The notes under the pieces were generated by a model that worked only from the letters and a program-made list of their open reading frames with translations, did not search any database and was not told the DNA's origin. This document shows, in pieces, positions 13,825 through 37,059 of a DNA stretch of 41,319 nucleotides. Source of the stretch: a virus; IMG/VR virus record IMGVR_UViG_3300044742_000408, positions 1 through 41,319 of that record, one strand, 5' to 3'. The number at the start of each line of letters is the position of its first letter. Within the stretch, counting starts at the first letter, position 1. A program made the translations under genes and the position numbers.

Positions 13825-14033
13825 GGTTTCACCTTCCGCTTGGCATAGACGCACAGGACGCCGCCGCAGATCATAGCGTTTCGCACCACGGCGACCGCGC
13901 TGATCGTCACTAAGTACCAATCGGGACCATCGAGCTGTTTTGGCGGCGCACTGCCTTCCCAGTAGAGGCTCGTCACGATCTCCCAGTCGTCTAGCCGGAG
14001 AGGCAACTGCGGCTTGTCGTTTTCGTCGCTCAT
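13821..14033 (-). CDS. Small membrane protein, 70 aa
   Basis: An acidic N-terminus (MSDENDKPQLPLRLDDWEIV) is followed by one hydrophobic segment (WYLVTISAVAVVRNAMICGG then VLCVYAKRK) and a basic end. ATGA and TTGA overlaps join it to its neighbours. Size and topology are compatible with a class III-like holin, but a central arginine in the segment is unusual and no holin family is recognised. Confidence 0.5.
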   Translation of the reverse strand: MSDENDKPQLPLRLDDWEIVTSLYWEGSAPPKQLDGPDWYLVTISAVAVVRNAMICGGVLCVYAKRKVKP

Positions 14034-14218
14034 CGGAAGTCCTTTTCAGCTTGGACCGAGACAGCTTTCACGCCAAGGCGCCGGAACCGTTCCCAGCATT
14101 GGTTGAGCGCCGCGCCGGGGATGAATCGGTGCGCAGCGGCGATGTTCTCGACCCACGTCTCGAAGTCGTCGGCCAAGTAGCGGCCGTCTGGCAGTTGCAA
14201 GAGGAGCGCTGTTTTCAT
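14030..14218 (-). CDS. Small hypothetical protein, 62 aa
   Basis: MKTALLLQLPDGRYLADDFE continues with TWVENIAAAHRFIPGAALNQ. The N-terminal strand-turn-strand with LPDGRYL is common in small phage proteins. The start overlaps the upstream TGA (ATGA). No function assigned. Confidence 0.55.
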   Translation of the reverse strand: MKTALLLQLPDGRYLADDFETWVENIAAAHRFIPGAALNQCWERFRRLGVKAVSVQAEKDFR

Positions 14219-14391
14219 CGCTCGTCCCCTTGTCGAAGCGCCGCGTTGAGTGGGCCCAGTATCTTCTCGCCTCGCTCTCTGAGATCGTGCACCGCCACGT
14301 CCGCGGCCACGATGCACTCGAACGGCTTCCTTCTTTGAGCGAACTCGGCCGCGTACACCGCGATCCACACGTGGGCTTCGGCCGGCGTCAT
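14215..14391 (-). CDS. Small hypothetical protein, 58 aa
   Basis: MTPAEAHVWIAVYAAEFAQR is followed by KPFECIVAADVAVHDLRERG, a helical protein resembling short phage proteins with the pattern AADxAVxxLRER. It overlaps the metalloprotease-like gene and its downstream neighbour by 4 bp each. No function assigned. Confidence 0.55.
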   Translation of the reverse strand: MTPAEAHVWIAVYAAEFAQRRKPFECIVAADVAVHDLRERGEKILGPLNAALRQGDER

Positions 14392-14993
14392 GACCCGTCT
14401 GCCGCCTCCGCCGCCGGTTGAAACGCTCTCTTCGCAGCGCGCTCGGCTGCCGCCACGCGCCGTTTCCACTTCTTGACGAAGGTCTCCGCCCGACGAAGCC
14501 GAGTCTCGGCCCGCTTGAGCATCGTTTGAGCGTGCGCGACCTTCTTCACGCGAATCTCGTCGGCACTCGGCGGCGCTTCCGTTCTGTGCGCGACGACGAT
14601 CCCTTCGGCCCACTCCGGCAGCTCCCCGCGGCAATACCGCTGGTCGTCCGACATGTCCCCGTGCAGCACGCCGCGCCAGTGCATCGCCTCGTGGCGCATG
14701 ACGAGCGCGAACTCTCGCACGCTGAACTTCGCCGGATCTCTCGGAACTGACAACGCCATGTTGAGCCCTGTGACGTGAACGCTGTCACCGAGCGCGGCGC
14801 AGCCGTGGTGACCTAGCTCTTGGCTTGAGTACGCGATTCGAACGGCACCGCGGACGCGCATGCCCTGCGCCCTGAGCGCTCGAATCATGAGTGATCGGAT
14901 GGCGCGGGTGTCGTAGCCGGTGTCGTTGACGATCTGTAGCCCCGAGAGATGCTTGTGCGTCACCTCGGGCAGCTTGGCTCGACGGCGCCTCAT
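14388..14993 (-). CDS. HExxHxxGxxH metalloprotease-like protein
   Basis: The 201-residue product contains VMRHEAMHWRGVLHGDM: HExxH at 101-105 with a third histidine at 111, the zinc-binding pattern of metzincin/SprT-like peptidases, with E102 the expected general base. A hydrophobic core precedes it, and the last 50 residues form a basic predicted coiled coil (MLKRAETRLRRAETFVKKW). A protease acting on host or phage proteins, or a structural zinc protein, are both possible. It starts with MRRRRAKLPEVTHKHL and overlaps the RHH gene upstream. Confidence 0.65.
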   Translation of the reverse strand: MRRRRAKLPEVTHKHLSGLQIVNDTGYDTRAIRSLMIRALRAQGMRVRGAVRIAYSSQELGHHGCAALGDSVHVTGLNMALSVPRDPAKFSVREFALVMRHEAMHWRGVLHGDMSDDQRYCRGELPEWAEGIVVAHRTEAPPSADEIRVKKVAHAQTMLKRAETRLRRAETFVKKWKRRVAAAERAAKRAFQPAAEAADGS

Positions 14994-15178
14994 GACTTCT
15001 TCTTACGCTCCGACTCGAGCTCGGCGAGGCCCTTGTGCAACGCGAGACGGAGAACTTCCGTCCGCGTCACGGTCATCCCCGGTTGAGACAGCCGCTCAGC
15101 GAGCTTGTCTGCTCGGCTGAGGACGGATTCGGGTAAGCGAATCGCTGTCTGTACTTGTTGGTCCTGCTTGTCGTTCAC
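14990..15178 (-). CDS. Ribbon-helix-helix regulator, 62 aa
   Basis: The sequence QTAIRLPESVLSRADKLAER (a short strand then helix) and MTVTRTEVLRLALHKGLAEL (second helix) form a standard ribbon-helix-helix DNA-binding fold that dimerises and reads DNA with its beta strand. It is preceded and followed by 4-bp overlaps. It probably represses a nearby promoter; candidates are the palindromic and repeated motifs near 19070-19610. Confidence 0.75.
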   Translation of the reverse strand: MNDKQDQQVQTAIRLPESVLSRADKLAERLSQPGMTVTRTEVLRLALHKGLAELESERKKKS

Positions 15179-15462
15179 TTCGGTTTCCTTTCTAGAATCT
15201 CTCTCGCTTTCGCGGCGATGGCTCGGGCGCTCCTGAATCGTTCCAGCGCCGGGTTCTTAGGCGGTATAGACTGGAGCGCGCTCATCGAGAGCTCCTTGTC
15301 GGCTTCGGCCAACGCTTCCGCTTTCTGCTCCCGCGTGCCGAAGAGCAAACGGTGGCGTACATCGCCGCTGATCTTCGACAAGCAGCGGCTGCAAAAGTGT
15401 TGGCGCGCCGGAACTGCGCGGGCGCAGCTACGAACACGACAGACCTTGCCGACGTCGCTCAC
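15175..15462 (-). CDS. Small zinc-binding protein, 95 aa
   Basis: Begins MSDVGKVCRVRSCARAVPAR with a CxxxxC pair followed by HFCSRCLSKI, probably one zinc site within the first 32 residues. The rest is a charged helix (REQKAEALAEADKEL). Similar Cys-x4-Cys...FCxxC proteins are frequent in phage early regions. Function unknown. Confidence 0.6.
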   Translation of the reverse strand: MSDVGKVCRVRSCARAVPARQHFCSRCLSKISGDVRHRLLFGTREQKAEALAEADKELSMSALQSIPPKNPALERFRSARAIAAKAREILERKPK

Positions 15463-15749
15463 AGTGAACCTCCATTGAACTCGATAGTCATAGCCGCTTG
15501 CGCGTAGGCGTCTTGAAGCGTCTCACCTTGAAAGGATGCCAGATCGTTCGACGAGTAGATCATGGTCCCTCCGACGTGAATCATGTGCGCGTCGCGTATC
15601 GTCAATTGAACCCTGCCGTCGAGACTCCGCCGCGTATCGAGCGAAGCTTTCGGGTGATCGCTAAGCCAGCGGGTAAGAATATCGAAGATGCGTGCTGCGG
15701 ACCGCGCGAACGCCGTTTCGATCTCCTTTGTGCGCTCCTCGGCGGTCAC
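15459..15749 (-). CDS. Hypothetical protein, 96 aa, GTG start
   Basis: GTG overlaps the upstream TGA. The product starts VTAEERTKEIETAFARSAAR and has a central beta-rich segment (GRVQLTIRDAHMIHVGGTMI) and a helix near the end (LQDAYAQAAMTIEF). No motif recognised. Confidence 0.55.
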   Translation of the reverse strand: MTAEERTKEIETAFARSAARIFDILTRWLSDHPKASLDTRRSLDGRVQLTIRDAHMIHVGGTMIYSSNDLASFQGETLQDAYAQAAMTIEFNGGSL

Positions 15750-15937
15750 GCGCGCCTCGCTATCGCCCTGCGGTACTCGAGCAGGTCTCGCGCTCTAATG
15801 TCGAAGCGCTCGCTCAGATCCATGGCGACCTGAAAGTCTGGCGAGAGCAGCGCAAGCTGGCTGCCACGCATCACCGCCGCCACGAACGCTACGGCTTCCG
15901 CCTTGGTTTGAGGGTCGCGCGGGTTGAGCTCAGCCAT
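15746..15937 (-). CDS. Small hypothetical protein, 63 aa
   Basis: MAELNPRDPQTKAEAVAFVA is followed by AVMRGSQLALLSPDFQVAMD, giving a compact helical protein. Its ATG lies within the last codons of the upstream gene (8-bp overlap). No family recognised. Confidence 0.5.
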   Translation of the reverse strand: MAELNPRDPQTKAEAVAFVAAVMRGSQLALLSPDFQVAMDLSERFDIRARDLLEYRRAIARRA

Positions 15938-16319
15938 ACTTGATCTCCCCAAGCATCGCGAGCTGCACCACAATGTCTTCGCGCGTCGAATCCGTCTCCT
16001 CGTACCAGTTGACGCCCCAACGCTTGACGCCCTCTTCCCAAGCGCGGACAGCCATCTCGGCGTCGAGAGCGAACCAACCCGACGGGAGCGCGACGGTCAC
16101 GCCGCGCTTCCACACGCTTACCGCGTGCTCGCGATCGGGCTCCTCGCCGTGGGCGCACTTCTCGTCGTCCTCCCAGCAAAGCCAGCCGAGCTTGGGATCG
16201 TGCTCGACGCCGCGGAGCCAATAGCCCGCGTAGCCGCCACCGAAGATGTCGGAGTGGCGCGTCAAGTAGTCGATCCAGTTCGGATCGATCTCGACGGCGA
16301 TCGTGAACGTGTGCTTCAT
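15930..16319 (-). CDS. Conserved phage hypothetical protein, 129 aa
   Basis: Sequence such as IFGGGYAGYWLRGVEHDPKL and GWLCWEDDEKCAHGEEPDRE, then WEEGVKRWGVNWYEE and EDIVVQLAMLGEIKYG, marks a frequent family of phage proteins of unknown function. Its ATG lies inside the left copy of the target duplication flanking the IS (16314-16321). Before the insertion the same ATG would have overlapped the TGA of the gene now ending at 18438. Confidence 0.7.
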   Translation of the reverse strand: MKHTFTIAVEIDPNWIDYLTRHSDIFGGGYAGYWLRGVEHDPKLGWLCWEDDEKCAHGEEPDREHAVSVWKRGVTVALPSGWFALDAEMAVRAWEEGVKRWGVNWYEETDSTREDIVVQLAMLGEIKYG

Positions 16320-16321
16320 CG
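16314..16321 (+). repeat. Target-site duplication, left copy
   Basis: CTTCATCG immediately flanks the left terminal repeat and is repeated exactly at 18436-18443. Eight bases is the usual IS1595-family duplication length. It contains the start codon (minus-strand ATG) of the neighbouring phage gene. Confidence 0.85.
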
Positions 16322-16346
16322 CATGCTTATCCGGTTAGCGCCCAAG
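16322..16346 (+). repeat. Terminal inverted repeat, left
   Basis: Starts CATGCTTATCCGGTT, then AGCG, then CCCAAG; the complement of 18411-18435 with three mismatches. It includes the TAA stop of the transposase (16327-16329). Confidence 0.85.
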
Positions 16347-17343
16347 GGTGACTCCACTGCCCCGAATAGAGCCCGTCATAAGTCGGACCCTCCACGTCGG
16401 CGGCAACGCCGAGCAGGCTCCGAAAGCTGTTGAACGGGTAGAAACGACGATTGAAGCGGAACGTGAATTCATTGAGGTACGCCTGCAAATGTTGAGGACC
16501 GACGCCATGATGCACGCCGAGCAGCCACGATTTCATGTTCGAGAAAATGAGGTGAACGATCGGGAGGTACTCCTCCGCGATCCGGGCTTCGTTCCGCTCT
16601 TCCACCTGAAGATGGTGGAATCCGAGCGACTTGAGCTTGTCGTATCCCGCCCAGCCGTCCGTTACGACCATCGTCCCGGGCTCCACGGAGTCCACCACGA
16701 AGCCCGTAAGCGTCTTGGCGGTACGGTTCGGCGCGACGGAGAGCCGGAGCCTGCCAGCGTACCGGCCGCCACGGCGCGGGATTGCCTTGCTGTGCCCGTT
16801 CTCGTCGGGATCCTTGGGCTTGCGGAGCCGAACCTCCACGGCGGCCACCACGAGCGTCTGGTGATGCTTCCCGCGCCCCTCGCCTCGGGTACGGCCACCT
16901 ACCCAAGTCTCGTCCACCTCGACGTGAGCGGCCACGGTGCCACCGATCCGGTCACGGTCCGGGCGGACCATTCCGGCCCGGAGCTTGTGGAGGATCTGGA
17001 ACGCGGTCTCGTAGCGGGTGAGACCGAGCTGGCGCTGGAACTGCACGGCGGACATGCCGGGCGTCATCGTGGAGACGAGGTAGGACGCCCAGAACCACGT
17101 GGAGAGCGGCGTCCGCGTCCGCTCCATGACCGTGCCCGCCGTCAGGCTCGTGTCGGTCTGGCACTTCTTGCAGCGCAGAATGTGGGGCTTCGCCGTGAAA
17201 CGGTACGGCTCCCCCGCATGGCCACAGCGGCACCGGAAGCCGTCGCGCCAGTGGATGCGCTCCAGGTACTCGGCGCAGGCCGCATCGTGCGGAAAGAGCT
17301 TCTGAAACTCGGGAAGAGACTTCGGGAAGGGGAGATCAGACAT
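16327..17343 (-). CDS. IS1595-family transposase
   Basis: The 338-residue protein has an N-terminal zinc ribbon (FRCRCGHAG, C38/C40; LRCKKC, C58/C61) and an ISXO2-like catalytic domain. The likely active-site residues are D144 in VEVDETWVGG, D229 in VVTDGWAGY and N269/K271 in FSNMKSWL, the DDNK-type variant of this family, followed by the typical GVHHGVGPQHLQAYLNEF and FRFNRRFYPF. All are intact, so it may be active. The frame is open upstream, but the ATG at 17343 gives the usual N-terminus MSDLPFPKSLPEFQ. The start overlaps the end of the last cargo gene by 8 bp, so expression is coupled to the cargo. Confidence 0.93.
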   Translation of the reverse strand: MSDLPFPKSLPEFQKLFPHDAACAEYLERIHWRDGFRCRCGHAGEPYRFTAKPHILRCKKCQTDTSLTAGTVMERTRTPLSTWFWASYLVSTMTPGMSAVQFQRQLGLTRYETAFQILHKLRAGMVRPDRDRIGGTVAAHVEVDETWVGGRTRGEGRGKHHQTLVVAAVEVRLRKPKDPDENGHSKAIPRRGGRYAGRLRLSVAPNRTAKTLTGFVVDSVEPGTMVVTDGWAGYDKLKSLGFHHLQVEERNEARIAEEYLPIVHLIFSNMKSWLLGVHHGVGPQHLQAYLNEFTFRFNRRFYPFNSFRSLLGVAADVEGPTYDGLYSGQWSHPWALTG

Positions 17344-17533
17344 CGTCGTCCTCGTCTCCCGGGCACTCACGGCAACCCTCTTTCCGTTCCTCCGGGTGAT
17401 CAGGACAGCACTCGGCGACATCGAACCAATCTTCCGGGTGATAACGATCGTCAACCGCAGCTAGGGCCTCTTCTTTTGAGTCGAATTGCCCTTCGACTAA
17501 ACCTTCTTCATTGAAGATCCCGAAGATGTTCAT
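17336..17533 (-). CDS. IS cargo: small Cys-rich phage-like protein
   Basis: The 65-residue product MNIFGIFNEEGLVEGQFDSK continues EEALAAV and CCPDHPEERKEGCRECPGDE. The GIFxEEGLVExxFxSxEEA and CxDHPExxxxxCxEC patterns match a small protein family I associate with phage early regions. Here it lies within the IS boundaries. ATGA overlap upstream and an 8-bp overlap with the transposase downstream. Confidence 0.65.
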   Translation of the reverse strand: MNIFGIFNEEGLVEGQFDSKEEALAAVDDRYHPEDWFDVAECCPDHPEERKEGCRECPGDEDDDV

Positions 17534-17835
17534 GATCTCACCCCAGACTTCCCGCTTCCGCCGCACGCGAGGCAGCGCGTCATGGTGCATTCGGAGTGAA
17601 GCGGTTGCCGACCGCTGCCTTTGCATGCGAGGCAATCCTCGCCCAGGGCCGAGAGTCCCGCGTCTGTGGTGCCGTAGGATGCCGTACAGCCTGGAAGTAA
17701 CTCCAGAAATCCAAGGTGCGCTAGCACCTGTGCGACATTCAGATCCCCGCCAGTTAATGGCGTCGCATCGGCGCCAGCACAATGCATCAAGAGCCTCAGT
17801 GCCCCTTGAGGCAACCCCGTCTTCGGCGCGGTCAC
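17530..17835 (-). CDS. IS cargo: DnaJ-type zinc motif protein, GTG start
   Basis: The 101-residue product ends with CLACKGSGRQPLHSE and CLACGGSGKSG, two CxxCxGxG repeats as in the zinc domain of DnaJ chaperones, able to bind one zinc. The first 65 residues are helical (GALRLLMHCAGAD; NVAQVLAHLGFLELL). GTG overlaps the upstream TGA. No J-domain is present, so co-chaperone activity is not implied. Confidence 0.6.
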   Translation of the reverse strand: MTAPKTGLPQGALRLLMHCAGADATPLTGGDLNVAQVLAHLGFLELLPGCTASYGTTDAGLSALGEDCLACKGSGRQPLHSECTMTRCLACGGSGKSGVRS

Positions 17836-18065
17836 GGAAGCACCGCCTTCACGATCGTATCCGGGACAGCGCGTCCATACGAGGTGTCGCACCACTCACC
17901 TTCTCGCTCTTCATTGCCAAGAGGGCCGAACGCGCGTTCTCCACCGTTTTCGTACCGAATCATCGCCAAGGCACGACGGCGCGCGGCATTCCCGTCGCGC
18001 GCCTCAACCTTCATGATGCGGTATTCCACCACTTTTCGGTGGAGCGTGATCTCATAGAGGGCCAT
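17832..18065 (-). CDS. IS cargo: small hypothetical protein, 77 aa
   Basis: MALYEITLHRKVVEYRIMKV is followed by EARDGNAARRRALAMI, giving two strands then a helix, a layout common in short phage proteins of unknown role. It starts immediately after the stop of the preceding cargo gene and overlaps the next by GTGA. Confidence 0.6.
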   Translation of the reverse strand: MALYEITLHRKVVEYRIMKVEARDGNAARRRALAMIRYENGGERAFGPLGNEEREGEWCDTSYGRAVPDTIVKAVLP

Positions 18066-18317
18066 CTAGAGACCCTCCATATAGGCCCTGGCCGCTGCAT
18101 TCAGCTCGCGACGGAGCCCCGAGTTCCGGCGAACGGCTTGCCCACCCTGGCGGTACACCTCGAAAATCGAAACACGGTCACCGAAGCGGAGACCCTCGAT
18201 ACCGTACTTCACACCGTCCAGCGTGGCGGTAAGAGAGTACCACGTCTGGCTCAAGCCCCCGGATCTGCTCGTCGTCGCGCGATCCGTTCGGATCGAAATA
18301 ATGCTACTTCTTGCCAT
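18066..18317 (-). CDS. IS cargo: small hypothetical protein, 83 aa
   Basis: First gene behind the promoter in the right IS end. The product MARSSIISIRTDRATTSRSG then LSQTWYSLTATLDGVKYGIE and GDRVSIFEVYRQGGQA suggests a small beta-rich protein. It stops with TAG directly before the next ATG. No family recognised. Confidence 0.55.
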   Translation of the reverse strand: MARSSIISIRTDRATTSRSGGLSQTWYSLTATLDGVKYGIEGLRFGDRVSIFEVYRQGGQAVRRNSGLRRELNAAARAYMEGL

Positions 18318-18393
18318 GTTGGAAACTCAACCTTTCCGACCAAGGGTCCCGGCTGCTTCAACAGCGCGGGGCCCATTTCGTTGGTACCCCCAG

Positions 18394-18422
18394 ACTATAG
18401 CCACGGGCGGCTTGGGTGTCAA
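18394..18422 (-). promoter_or_regulatory. Strong sigma70-like promoter of the IS operon
   Basis: On the minus strand TTGACA (18417-18422) and TATAGT (18394-18399) are separated by exactly 17 bp. The -35 hexamer lies inside the right terminal repeat, just where the two repeats differ (GACA here, AGCG on the left), so only this end forms a promoter. It would transcribe the cargo genes and transposase, and possibly downstream phage genes. Confidence 0.8.
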
Positions 18423-18435
18423 CCGGATAAGCATG
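18411..18435 (-). repeat. Terminal inverted repeat, right
   Basis: Read on the minus strand it begins CATGCTTATCCGGTT, then GACA, then CCCAAG; 22 of 25 positions match the left repeat. It includes the -35 box of the IS promoter. Confidence 0.85.
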
Positions 18436-18443
18436 CTTCATCG
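18436..18443 (+). repeat. Target-site duplication, right copy
   Basis: CTTCATCG, identical to 16314-16321. On the minus strand it reads CGATGAAG and carries the TGA stop of the upstream phage gene together with a second copy of the ATG that starts the downstream gene. Confidence 0.85.
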
Positions 18444-18638
18444 CTTCGTCTTTCGAACGTCGCTGAGACGCTCGAGGGCCAGGCGCATGACGGCGTCGGC
18501 TTCGTCGCCGTAGTGGCGAACGAGCACCTTCGCGATGGCCTGCGCGTCGGGTTCGTAGCTCTTCGCGTCGTCGCGCGCGTTCTTCTTGAGGGCCCGGTCG
18601 ACAGCCGCCGGGCCTCCCGTTTTCTCTTCGTTGAACAT
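18438..18638 (-). CDS. Small hypothetical protein, 66 aa
   Basis: MFNEEKTGGPAAVDRALKKN is followed by QAIAKVLVRHYGDEADAVMR, a charged helical protein. Its TGA lies in the right target duplication; the gene it once overlapped by ATGA is now 2.1 kb away across the IS. It starts 8 bp after the stop of the preceding gene. No family recognised. Confidence 0.6.
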   Translation of the reverse strand: MFNEEKTGGPAAVDRALKKNARDDAKSYEPDAQAIAKVLVRHYGDEADAVMRLALERLSDVRKTKR

Positions 18639-18646
18639 CGTTTTCC

Positions 18647-19042
18647 TCAATCGAGCGCTACGCTGGCCGCTTCGGCCATTGCGTGGATAGCCTTGTCGAG
18701 GGTTCCGCCGTCGAAGCGGCCGAGCTCGCCGTTGAGAAGGCCTCGCACGCCGCGCAGGGCGTCGAGCCATTCGCGCCCGAGCACGCCATCCGCGCCGATC
18801 TTCGAGCTGTACTGCCGCTCGTGGGCGTCGGCGTACTCGGCGAGACCGAGCAGCATGGTCCGGAGCGAGCGCTCGAACCCGGACCGGGGGTCCTTCGTCG
18901 CGGCCACCTGCCTGTCGGCCCACCCGTTCGCCCCCGCGTTGGGTCCGAGCCCTTCGAGCGGGCACACCAAAGTACCCCACAGAGCGTTCGCGACGGCCCC
19001 GGGGCGGGGCACGAACACGGTCGGACAAGATTCACTAGCCAT
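18647..19042 (-). CDS. Conserved phage hypothetical protein, 131 aa
   Basis: The stretch EYADAHERQYSSKIGADGVL then GREWLDALRGVRGLLNGELG and GRFDGGTLDKAIHAMAEAAS matches a widespread phage family of unknown function. GAAAGGAG precedes the ATG, and a strong promoter lies 30 bp upstream, so it begins the leftward operon that continues past the IS. Confidence 0.7.
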   Translation of the reverse strand: MASESCPTVFVPRPGAVANALWGTLVCPLEGLGPNAGANGWADRQVAATKDPRSGFERSLRTMLLGLAEYADAHERQYSSKIGADGVLGREWLDALRGVRGLLNGELGRFDGGTLDKAIHAMAEAASVALD

Positions 19043-34361: not shown

Positions 34362-36017
34362 ATGGGCTACGATCCGCGGAAGTTCGGCGCGCGCTGCGAT
34401 CTCTGCCCGTTGCGCGGTAACACCGTCGTTCCGCCGAAAGCCTCGAGCCTCCCAACGAAGCTAGTGTTCGTCGGCGAAGCGCCCGGCCGCAAAGAGGAGA
34501 TCCAAGGCATCCCCTTCGTCGGCCAAACCGGTTCCTTCCTCCGCGGGCTTTGCCGAGAGGTCGACATAGATATCCGCGAGGCCGCCCTCCAGAATGCAGC
34601 GCTTTGTAGGAGCAACATCGACCGGGAAAACGAAGAGGCCGCAGTCTGCTGCGCGCCTCGACTCCTGAAAGATCTCGCGAAGTTCGATCCGTCGATCCCG
34701 ATCGTCACGCTAGGCAAGACGTCTACGCTCTCCGTACTCGGAGTGCGCTCGATCATGCACGCGCGCGGCTTCGTTTGGACGGCGCGCGAGATCGACGCGA
34801 TACCGGCGTGGAAAGCGGCGAAGAAGGCGAAAGAGCGGGCCGCGCCGAAGTGGAAAGAGCTTTGGTTGAAGGCGCAGATCGTCGACGGGCGAAGTCGGCT
34901 TGCGGGGCGCACGGTGCTTCCGACGCTCCACCCGGCGTTCATCTTGCGATCCGACACGTGGCTCCCGGTGTTGAAGATCGACCTCGACCGCATCGCTCGG
35001 TGGCTACGCGGAGAGCTCACGCACAAGAAGCTCGTCGACAACGGGCCCTACGTCGTCGTCACGAAGAAGAACGACGTCATCCACGAGCTCGCCAAGTTGA
35101 AGCCTGTCGTGAGCGAGGACATCGAGACGGGCCCGAGCACTCCCGGCGGCCAGGACGGTGCGAACCCGCTCCGGAACAGAATCCTGTGCATCGGCATCTC
35201 CGACGCCAAGCACACGGTCGTTATCTGGCCCTGGCGGCCGAAAGTGCACGTCCCGATCATCCGACGCTTCCACGAGCGCGTGCGCATCGTTGGAATGCAC
35301 AACGGCTACAACTTCGACCAGATCAGCATGGATCGCGCGGGGATCCCGTTCGACGAGATGGAAGACAAGCTCGAGGACACGCTCATCGCGCACCACACGT
35401 TCGCGAGCCACATGCCGCAAAGGCTTTCGCACGTCGCAAGCTGCTTCGTCGACGCGGGCCCGTGGAAGGTCACGTTCAAGCGCGGCAAAGACGGGGCTTC
35501 AGAAAAGGGCCTCCCGCCTGAAAAGCTCAGCGGCGCCGAGCTCTGCCTCTACAACGCGGCCGACGCACGCATCCAAGCGCTGGTGTGGCTCAGGATGCAA
35601 GCCGATCTCGAGAGCGAGCGGATGATCTACGAGGTCGACAAGGAAAACGCACGCCTCTGTCGCGACATGATCATTCGAGGCTCCGGCGTGGATCTCGACC
35701 GGCGCGATGTGCTCCGTGCGGCGATGGTGGAGAAGGAAGCGAGGCTGCTCGAGAAGATGCGCGTTCTCCTCCGGCGGCCGAACTTCCATCCAATGCAATT
35801 GGCCGAAGTGCGCCGCGCGCTCTTCACGACGCTTCGCGCCCCCTTGGCGGCGGCGGACCCCACCGATACGGGATTGCCCTCGACTAGCCAGAAGACTCTC
35901 GAGCGCCTCAAGGAGAGCCCGACGAGAGCAGGCCGGTTCGCCGACATGCTCCTCCAGTGGCGCGGCGTCGTGAAGATCAAGGGCACCTACATCGACTCGC
36001 AGGTGCTCGATGTCTAG
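34362..36017 (+). CDS. UDG / 3'-5' exonuclease / Pol I N-terminal part
   Basis: The 551-residue protein is a fusion. Residues 1-220 are a family 4-type uracil-DNA glycosylase: GEAPGRKEEIQGIPFVGQ (39-55), LPTLHPAFIL (187-195), and cysteines 12, 15, 82, 96/97 for a 4Fe-4S cluster. Residues about 245-405 are a DEDDy exonuclease: SEDIETGP (D253, E255), GMHNGYNFDQ (D319) and YNAADARIQ (Y397, D401). The last 140 residues match the Pol I thumb, ending RGVVKIKGTYIDSQVLDV. The palm and fingers are in the next gene, overlapping by 8 bp in another frame. The unit would proofread and remove uracil during replication. Confidence 0.88.
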   Translation: MGYDPRKFGARCDLCPLRGNTVVPPKASSLPTKLVFVGEAPGRKEEIQGIPFVGQTGSFLRGLCREVDIDIREAALQNAALCRSNIDRENEEAAVCCAPRLLKDLAKFDPSIPIVTLGKTSTLSVLGVRSIMHARGFVWTAREIDAIPAWKAAKKAKERAAPKWKELWLKAQIVDGRSRLAGRTVLPTLHPAFILRSDTWLPVLKIDLDRIARWLRGELTHKKLVDNGPYVVVTKKNDVIHELAKLKPVVSEDIETGPSTPGGQDGANPLRNRILCIGISDAKHTVVIWPWRPKVHVPIIRRFHERVRIVGMHNGYNFDQISMDRAGIPFDEMEDKLEDTLIAHHTFASHMPQRLSHVASCFVDAGPWKVTFKRGKDGASEKGLPPEKLSGAELCLYNAADARIQALVWLRMQADLESERMIYEVDKENARLCRDMIIRGSGVDLDRRDVLRAAMVEKEARLLEKMRVLLRRPNFHPMQLAEVRRALFTTLRAPLAAADPTDTGLPSTSQKTLERLKESPTRAGRFADMLLQWRGVVKIKGTYIDSQVLDV

Positions 36018-37059
36018 CGCGGCGGCCCGGCGGGCGGTCAAGCGCGCCCGGCGGCGGACGCCCGTGCGGAAGCCCAGAGCGAAGCGTGAGAAAGCGATCG
36101 GGGCCACGGCGGCGGCCGAGGCAATCGCACCTCTAGGCCCGGTCGTTCGCGTCGCGCGCACGCACTTCAACTGGCGATCTTACGGTACGGCGAGCGGTCG
36201 GTACTCGTCGCGCATCCAAAGCTGCCCGCGGGCGGAGTACCTGCTCGATCCGCAGACGAAAGAGAAGTTCATCGTCCTCGAGACGCGCATGCGTGAGCTC
36301 TACGTGGCGCCGCCGGGCTACAAGCTCGTCTACTTCGACCTCTCCCAAGCAGAGCTCCGATTCGCCGCGTACCTTTCCGGCGACGAGACGTTCATCAAGG
36401 CGTGCGAATCCGGCGACGTGCACACGGCGATGGCGAAGCTGCTCTTCCCCGCCGACGCCGAGCTCATCGGCCGCGATCCGAAGGGCGCCGGCAAACCCTT
36501 CCGCGACGTCGAGAAGAATTGCATCTTCGGATGCATCTACTACGCCGAGGCCGGGACGCTGTTCGCTTTCGTGCGCTCGAAAGGCCTCCCCGTCGAGATG
36601 CGCGACGTCGTGCAGCTCCAGGAGATGGTGCGCGACACGTGCAGCGGCTACTTCAAGTACGTCGAGGGCAACAAGCGCTGGGTCGACAAGCACGGCTACT
36701 TGAGATGCGCCCTTTCAGGTCGCATCTCGTGGTTGGGGTGGCACGCCGGTTTTCCGGACGTTGCGAACCGGCCGATCCAAGGCGGGATCGCGAGCTTGAT
36801 GAACGTGCGCTTGCCGAAGATCTGGCACGCCCTCCCGCGCGGCGCCGCCGTCGTCAAGCAAGTGCACGACGCGGCCATCATGGAAGTGCCTGACCGGCAC
36901 GTCGACCAGGTTTGCGAGCTCGTCGACAAGACGTGGGAAGAGCCCGTCATCATTCCGGCGAACGGATGGGGATCGTCGTTGAAGATTGAAGACGGCGCGC
37001 GGAGCTTTCGAATGCCGATCGATCGGAAGGTCGGGCAAAGGTGGTCGGACTTTGGATAG
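36010..37059 (+). CDS. DNA polymerase I palm/fingers part (split)
   Basis: The 349-residue protein holds the polymerase core: ASGRYSSRIQSCP (the TGRLSS-like region), motif A LVYFDLSQAELRFAAYLSGD (D110), motif B RDVEKNCIFGCIYY (165-178) and motif C VVKQVHDAAIME (D287). In motif C the residue after the catalytic Asp is Ala, where Pol I has Glu. Residues 1-35 are a basic linker (RRAVKRARRRTPVRKPRAKR). It must associate with the exonuclease/thumb protein encoded just upstream, and the 8-bp overlap supports coupled synthesis. Confidence 0.88.
   Translation: MSSAAARRAVKRARRRTPVRKPRAKREKAIGATAAAEAIAPLGPVVRVARTHFNWRSYGTASGRYSSRIQSCPRAEYLLDPQTKEKFIVLETRMRELYVAPPGYKLVYFDLSQAELRFAAYLSGDETFIKACESGDVHTAMAKLLFPADAELIGRDPKGAGKPFRDVEKNCIFGCIYYAEAGTLFAFVRSKGLPVEMRDVVQLQEMVRDTCSGYFKYVEGNKRWVDKHGYLRCALSGRISWLGWHAGFPDVANRPIQGGIASLMNVRLPKIWHALPRGAAVVKQVHDAAIMEVPDRHVDQVCELVDKTWEEPVIIPANGWGSSLKIEDGARSFRMPIDRKVGQRWSDFG

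Follow-up and report, generated by a model that had tools for sequence, protein, structure and literature searches.

The analysed stretch of DNA, hereafter called the window, is the IMG/VR virus record IMGVR_UViG_3300044742_000408 (41,319 bp, about 63% GC). It contains a phage-type replication module with genes for helicases, a primase/helicase, an exonuclease, a DNA polymerase and a thymidylate synthase. Two neighbouring ORFs (34362–36017 and 36010–37059) match successive parts of a single DNA polymerase family (phrog_17), one earlier and one later, so the polymerase looks split. Two minus-strand phage genes of the window are separated by an insertion sequence (IS) with passenger ORFs (Table 1).

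Table 1. Features of the IS-containing junction in the window.
Feature	Coordinates	Strand	Remarks
Upstream phage gene, 66 aa	18438..18638	-	Intact; ends inside the duplication, TGA 18440-18438
Target-site duplication copy 2, CTTCATCG	18436..18443	.	Contains TGA stop of upstream phage gene
IS1595-family insertion sequence with passenger ORFs	16322..18435	-	2114 bp; inverted repeats, 8-bp duplication, transposase, absent from sister phage
Terminal inverted repeat, promoter end	18411..18435	.	CATGCTTATCCGGTTGACACCCAAG on minus strand
Promoter-like site TTGACA-17-TATAGT	18394..18422	-	Sigma70-like, 11/12; -35 inside inverted repeat
Passenger ORF A, 83 aa	18066..18317	-	No family match
Passenger ORF B, 77 aa	17832..18065	-	GGAGGG ribosome-binding-like site; no family match
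Passenger ORF C, 101 aa	17530..17835	-	GTG start; GTGA overlap with ORF B; CxxC motifs
Passenger ORF D, 65 aa	17336..17533	-	ATGA overlap with ORF C; 8-nt overlap with transposase
IS1595-family transposase, 338 aa	16327..17343	-	PF12762 and PF12760 matches, alignment A1
Terminal inverted repeat, transposase end	16322..16346	.	Outward ...CCGGATAAGCATG; includes transposase stop TAA (16329-16327)
Target-site duplication copy 1, CTTCATCG	16314..16321	.	Contains ATG start of downstream phage gene
Downstream phage gene, 129 aa	15930..16319	-	Intact; starts inside the duplication, ATG 16319-16317

A preliminary description of this DNA had reported an IS1595-like insertion at 16314–18443, and the inverted repeats, the exact duplication and the Pfam domains of the transposase bear this out. 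The transposase matches DDE_Tnp_IS1595 (PF12762; 1.4e-34, 119.8 bits, cut-off 27) and, in its N-terminal part, Zn_ribbon_IS1595 (PF12760; 8.7e-08, 32.5 bits, cut-off 25.4). The candidate catalytic residues D144, D229 and N269/K271 are conserved in the transposase alignment A1. The terminal inverted repeats start with CATGCTTATCCGGTT... and are perfect over 15 bp, with 88% identity over 26 bp. The element shares with the IS1595 family the DDE domain, the zinc ribbon, the inverted repeats and the 8-bp target duplication. Such a duplication is usual for this family (PMC8101967, PMC12561309), and an N-terminal zinc-finger domain occurs in all of its groups except IS1016 (PMC8101967). The element was placed at the family level (subgroups ISNwi1, ISNha5, ISPna2 and others), from which it differs in being located in a phage and in carrying four passenger ORFs. 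No prior report of a phage-borne IS1595 element was found in the open-access literature, where absence proves little.

The element has the same orientation as the phage operon, with the promoter-like site followed by the four small ORFs (a passenger region of about 1.09 kb) and then by the transposase. The same promoter layout scores at least 9/12 in 43 of 55 viral copies, compared with 0.6% in shuffles. Within 15900–18700, neither a second such promoter nor a terminator-like site on the minus strand was found. The search for viral relatives of passenger ORF B gave no match. The transposase TAA lies within the inverted repeat, 7 nt ahead of the downstream phage ATG, and a mini-ORF at the IS end (AUG-CGA-UGA) overlaps this ATG. 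Given this arrangement, read-through transcription and translation re-initiation should maintain the expression of the downstream phage gene, whose ribosome-binding site after the insertion is weak (GGA, 10 nt upstream). It is also possible that the IS could itself drive the expression of this gene, judging by the sequence.

The state of the junction before the insertion is available from a sister phage, IMGVR 3300012164_000002, an 85.6 kb record whose ends overlap, which indicates that the genome is probably circular. The two phages are 98.8–100% identical on both flanks of the IS and otherwise collinear, so that the relative with an uninterrupted junction, for which the preliminary description had proposed a search, does exist. 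Its empty site reads ...AAGACGAAGCGATGAAGCACACG... / ...GTTCGAAAGACGAAGCGATGAAGCACACG... and contains a 4-nt ATGA overlap, in agreement with the pre-insertion state that had been proposed. As had also been described, CTTCATCG is exact at both ends of the IS and covers the stop codon of one gene and the start codon of the next. Since the 8-bp duplication spanned the whole 4-nt overlap, both the upstream stop and the downstream start were kept; each gene received its own copy of the target, and no codon was lost. The downstream ATG is the sole candidate start (ATG, GTG or TTG) in 72 open upstream codons of the IS-free relative. Homologues of the downstream gene were found by protein search in 8 viral contigs, and the copy in the sister phage is 100% identical. 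The earlier statement that ATGA overlaps join nearly all neighbouring genes was too strong, as this is the case at 35 of the 72 same-strand junctions. The insertion shows how a phage genome dense in such overlaps can accept a 2-kb insert with no codon lost. The junction is a clean natural case of a target duplication rescuing both overlap partners, with the pre-insertion sequence at hand. No prior report of duplications regenerating start/stop overlaps was found in the open-access literature, although absence there proves little.

It should be noted that a tyrosine integrase is present in the record of the sister phage at 57178–57660 (L180 3133–4287), which suggests that this phage is temperate. 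Ten large proteins of the sister phage gave no structural PHROG match, and a search with the flank 14000–16321 of the window retrieved no DNA relatives among named phages.

Based on the above results, we suggest that the phage operon recently received, by transposition, an IS1595-family element with passengers, and that an ordinary, weak palindromic target motif, not recognition of an ATGA junction, determined the site; we give this reading a probability of about 0.85. Staggered cuts 8 bp apart followed by gap repair would have duplicated CTTCATCG, and the landing on an overlap would be a low-probability event, possibly retained since it was harmless. Gain or loss of the IS yields an identical pair of sequences, and the IS could in principle be ancestral, the sister phage having lost it together with one copy of the duplication by precise excision. 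We regard this as very improbable: seven more distant relatives (L064–L070), homologous at the downstream gene, are also without the IS at this junction, and with flanks of such high identity a recent gain is simpler. The absence of the IS from both the near-identical sister phage and these distant relatives indicates that the insertion is recent. The least probable alternative is an assembly chimera, in which the IS was attached to the phage contig in error. Like other repeats, IS copies can cause misassembly, but a misjoin is not expected to give an exact duplication of the single 8-bp copy of the sister phage, full inverted repeats and intact genes. The transposition footprint as a whole is also far beyond chance: a random 8-mer match has a probability of about 1.5e-5, and the empty site is in agreement with the duplication, the inverted repeats and the transposase.

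The preliminary description had offered two reasons for the position of the element, namely selection of harmless sites in densely packed phage genomes and a preference of the element for ATGA junctions. The choice of target was analysed on 92 independent insertions of transposase relatives, 53 in viral contigs and 39 in bacterial genomes, for which an 8-bp duplication was the selection criterion. The idea of a phage-only lineage was rejected, as at least 514 relatives occur in bacterial genomes; 80 of these were taken. The boundaries were set from inverted repeats and duplications, and the flanks were joined by a script to give an empty site for each insertion. Each insertion site was compared with all local positions, either uniformly or weighted by a motif learned leave-one-out. 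The gene-based counts refer to unreviewed calls of a simple dynamic-programming caller written for this analysis.

The target motif of the 92 insertions is an 8-bp palindrome, about TnGWWCGWWCnA, and the site in the window is at the 98.7th local percentile of the motif score. An insertion covering both codons of a same-strand start/stop overlap was found once among the 92, in the window only, with 0.20 expected uniformly and 0.42 with motif weighting. An insertion would have this outcome at an overlap for about 0.5% of the positions in the joined phage sequence. The site in the window itself, together with the presence of ATGA or TCAT in 8 of the 92 duplications (3.3 expected from local frequency), could be taken to mean that the element evolved to target ATGA stop/start overlaps. 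However, seven of these eight duplications are located off any gene overlap, the motif weighting leaves the share of ATGA sites in the window phage nearly the same (0.71% uniform, 0.72% weighted), and a gene is broken by 40 of the 53 viral-contig insertions. Evolved targeting of this kind is thus highly unlikely, and the proposed preference for ATGA junctions was not upheld. Targeting of start/stop overlaps in general was likewise rejected, as there is no excess among the 92 insertions or among 30 sites of transposase-less cassettes (0 at an overlap, 0.08 expected).

Selection for harmless sites fared better. The insertions are nearer to gene borders than expected with motif weighting (KS p 0.00075, n = 92), and 15 of the 92 fall within 8 nt of a border, where 7.4 are expected. 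Border distances below the motif prediction mean that there is some influence of selection or of a target feature missing from the model, and the modest excess could be explained by selection. The transposase-less cassettes behave likewise, with a border percentile of 0.246 (p 4e-6, 30 sites, not motif-weighted) and with genes intact at 12 of 30 sites, compared with 4.6 expected uniformly and likewise not motif-weighted. It is possible, at somewhat less than even odds, that insertion is driven by the motif and blind to genes, and that selection in dense phage genomes purges the harmful insertions, which would leave the border enrichment, the site in the window included. On the other hand, the viral insertions with all called genes intact (13 of 53; 8.1 expected uniformly) equal the motif prediction of 13.1, and the same border excess is seen in bacterial copies. 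This account is compatible with the main explanation of a recent, motif-guided transposition and differs from it in the share of the pattern that is due to selection. The earlier proposal of selection for harmless sites is thus partly supported by the border excess, whereas a single event cannot show that the site in the window was selected. The broken genes showed no in-frame excess relative to the IS-terminal ATG (viral phases 10/19/11), and the orientation of the IS relative to the target gene was not biased (29 same, 24 opposite).

Passengers were found in 51 of 53 viral-contig copies and in 8 of 39 bacterial copies, a contrast that is confounded with transposase lineage. The trait follows this lineage, the tree requiring just 3 changes, and a viral-versus-bacterial contrast is not supported by independent pairs; we therefore do not claim that phage life causes the carriage of passengers. 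The viral status of the contigs rests on IMG/VR. Among 48 records, 14 have a PHROG terminase and 19 have a tyrosine integrase, the sister phage being one of these 19, so many of them may be temperate or proviral.

In 14 of 16 compared pairs, with transposases 90–99% identical (89% in the pair of the window), the alignment of the passenger region is limited to its ends, alone or with a partial stretch, and the remainder is unrelated. Two pairs depart from this pattern: L037/L038, whose passengers are identical, and L158/L080, in which the passengers are downstream. In six pairs (L025/L027, L022/L032, L166/L168, L030b/L162, L042/L044 and the window IS/L002; transposases 89–99% identical), only the ends are common, and the passenger region of 0.5–1.2 kb between them is unrelated. 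Among the passengers are DNA methyltransferases and an XcyI-type restriction enzyme. In L037 and L038, the passenger region contains a DNA methyltransferase gene adjoining an ORF, and the XcyI-type match probably comes from this pair; judging by these genes, the IS may carry a restriction-modification system. Some passengers match ordinary operon genes of other phages: the cargo of L166 has 78% DNA identity with L033 8377–8745, a gene in a dense operon outside any recognised IS.

In addition, a search for the IS ends in viral contigs revealed about 40 elements of 241–1191 bp with exact 8-bp duplications and no recognised transposase, the presence of which was judged by simple sequence motifs that may misplace a few elements. 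Their genes include members of the NADAR, Mom, Dam, C5-methyltransferase and PAPS-reductase families. Examples are L036 10357–10941, L197, L185, L227, L202, L214, L191, L230, L206 and others. Related cassettes occupy different targets, and genes of some of them also occur in copies that have a transposase. We consider it an even bet that this IS1595 lineage represents an exchangeable phage gene cassette system, in which fixed ends and a transposase enclose a swappable slot for phage genes, and transposase-less cassettes moved in trans spread DNA-modification genes and others of counter-defence type between phages. If confirmed, this would be a transposition route moving counter-defence-type genes between phages, and such behaviour of the lineage is of wider interest than the junction.

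Several known systems resemble parts of this picture. Phage morons are self-promoted units located between adjacent phage genes, neither of which is broken. The insertion in the window is likewise self-promoted and breaks neither neighbouring gene, but as a transposon it has inverted repeats and a target duplication. Transporter IS (tIS) are described by Siguier et al. 2009, as cited in PMC11891212, as IS with passenger genes, and ISNha5 of the IS1595 family is a cited example. As in these tIS, IS ends and a transposase are combined in the window with genes unneeded for transposition, the latter judging by passenger-free relatives of 1.06–1.11 kb, which retain the ends, transposase and duplications. 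In contrast to tIS, the transposase in the window shares one operon with its passengers, which are small phage-type ORFs, and relatives whose transposases are almost the same have completely different passengers. The mobile insertion cassettes (MIC), such as MIC231 of Bacillus cereus (cited in PMC6542083), have IS ends around a gene, lack a transposase and are moved in trans. The element in the window has a full transposase and is not a MIC, whereas the related cassettes elsewhere have this organization but differ in being located in viral contigs and in carrying Mom, Dam, C5-methyltransferase and NADAR genes. Although phages are considered to contain few IS (PMC8136500, citing Leclercq and Cordaux), the lineage recurs in viral contigs with changing sets of phage genes and with Mom/Dam/NADAR cassettes. 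Two kinds of this IS are common to the viral contig L011 and to L077 and L098 of the Pseudorhodoplanes MAG Bin_75R, with transposases 94–97% identical, which may be a clue to the host of the L011 phage.
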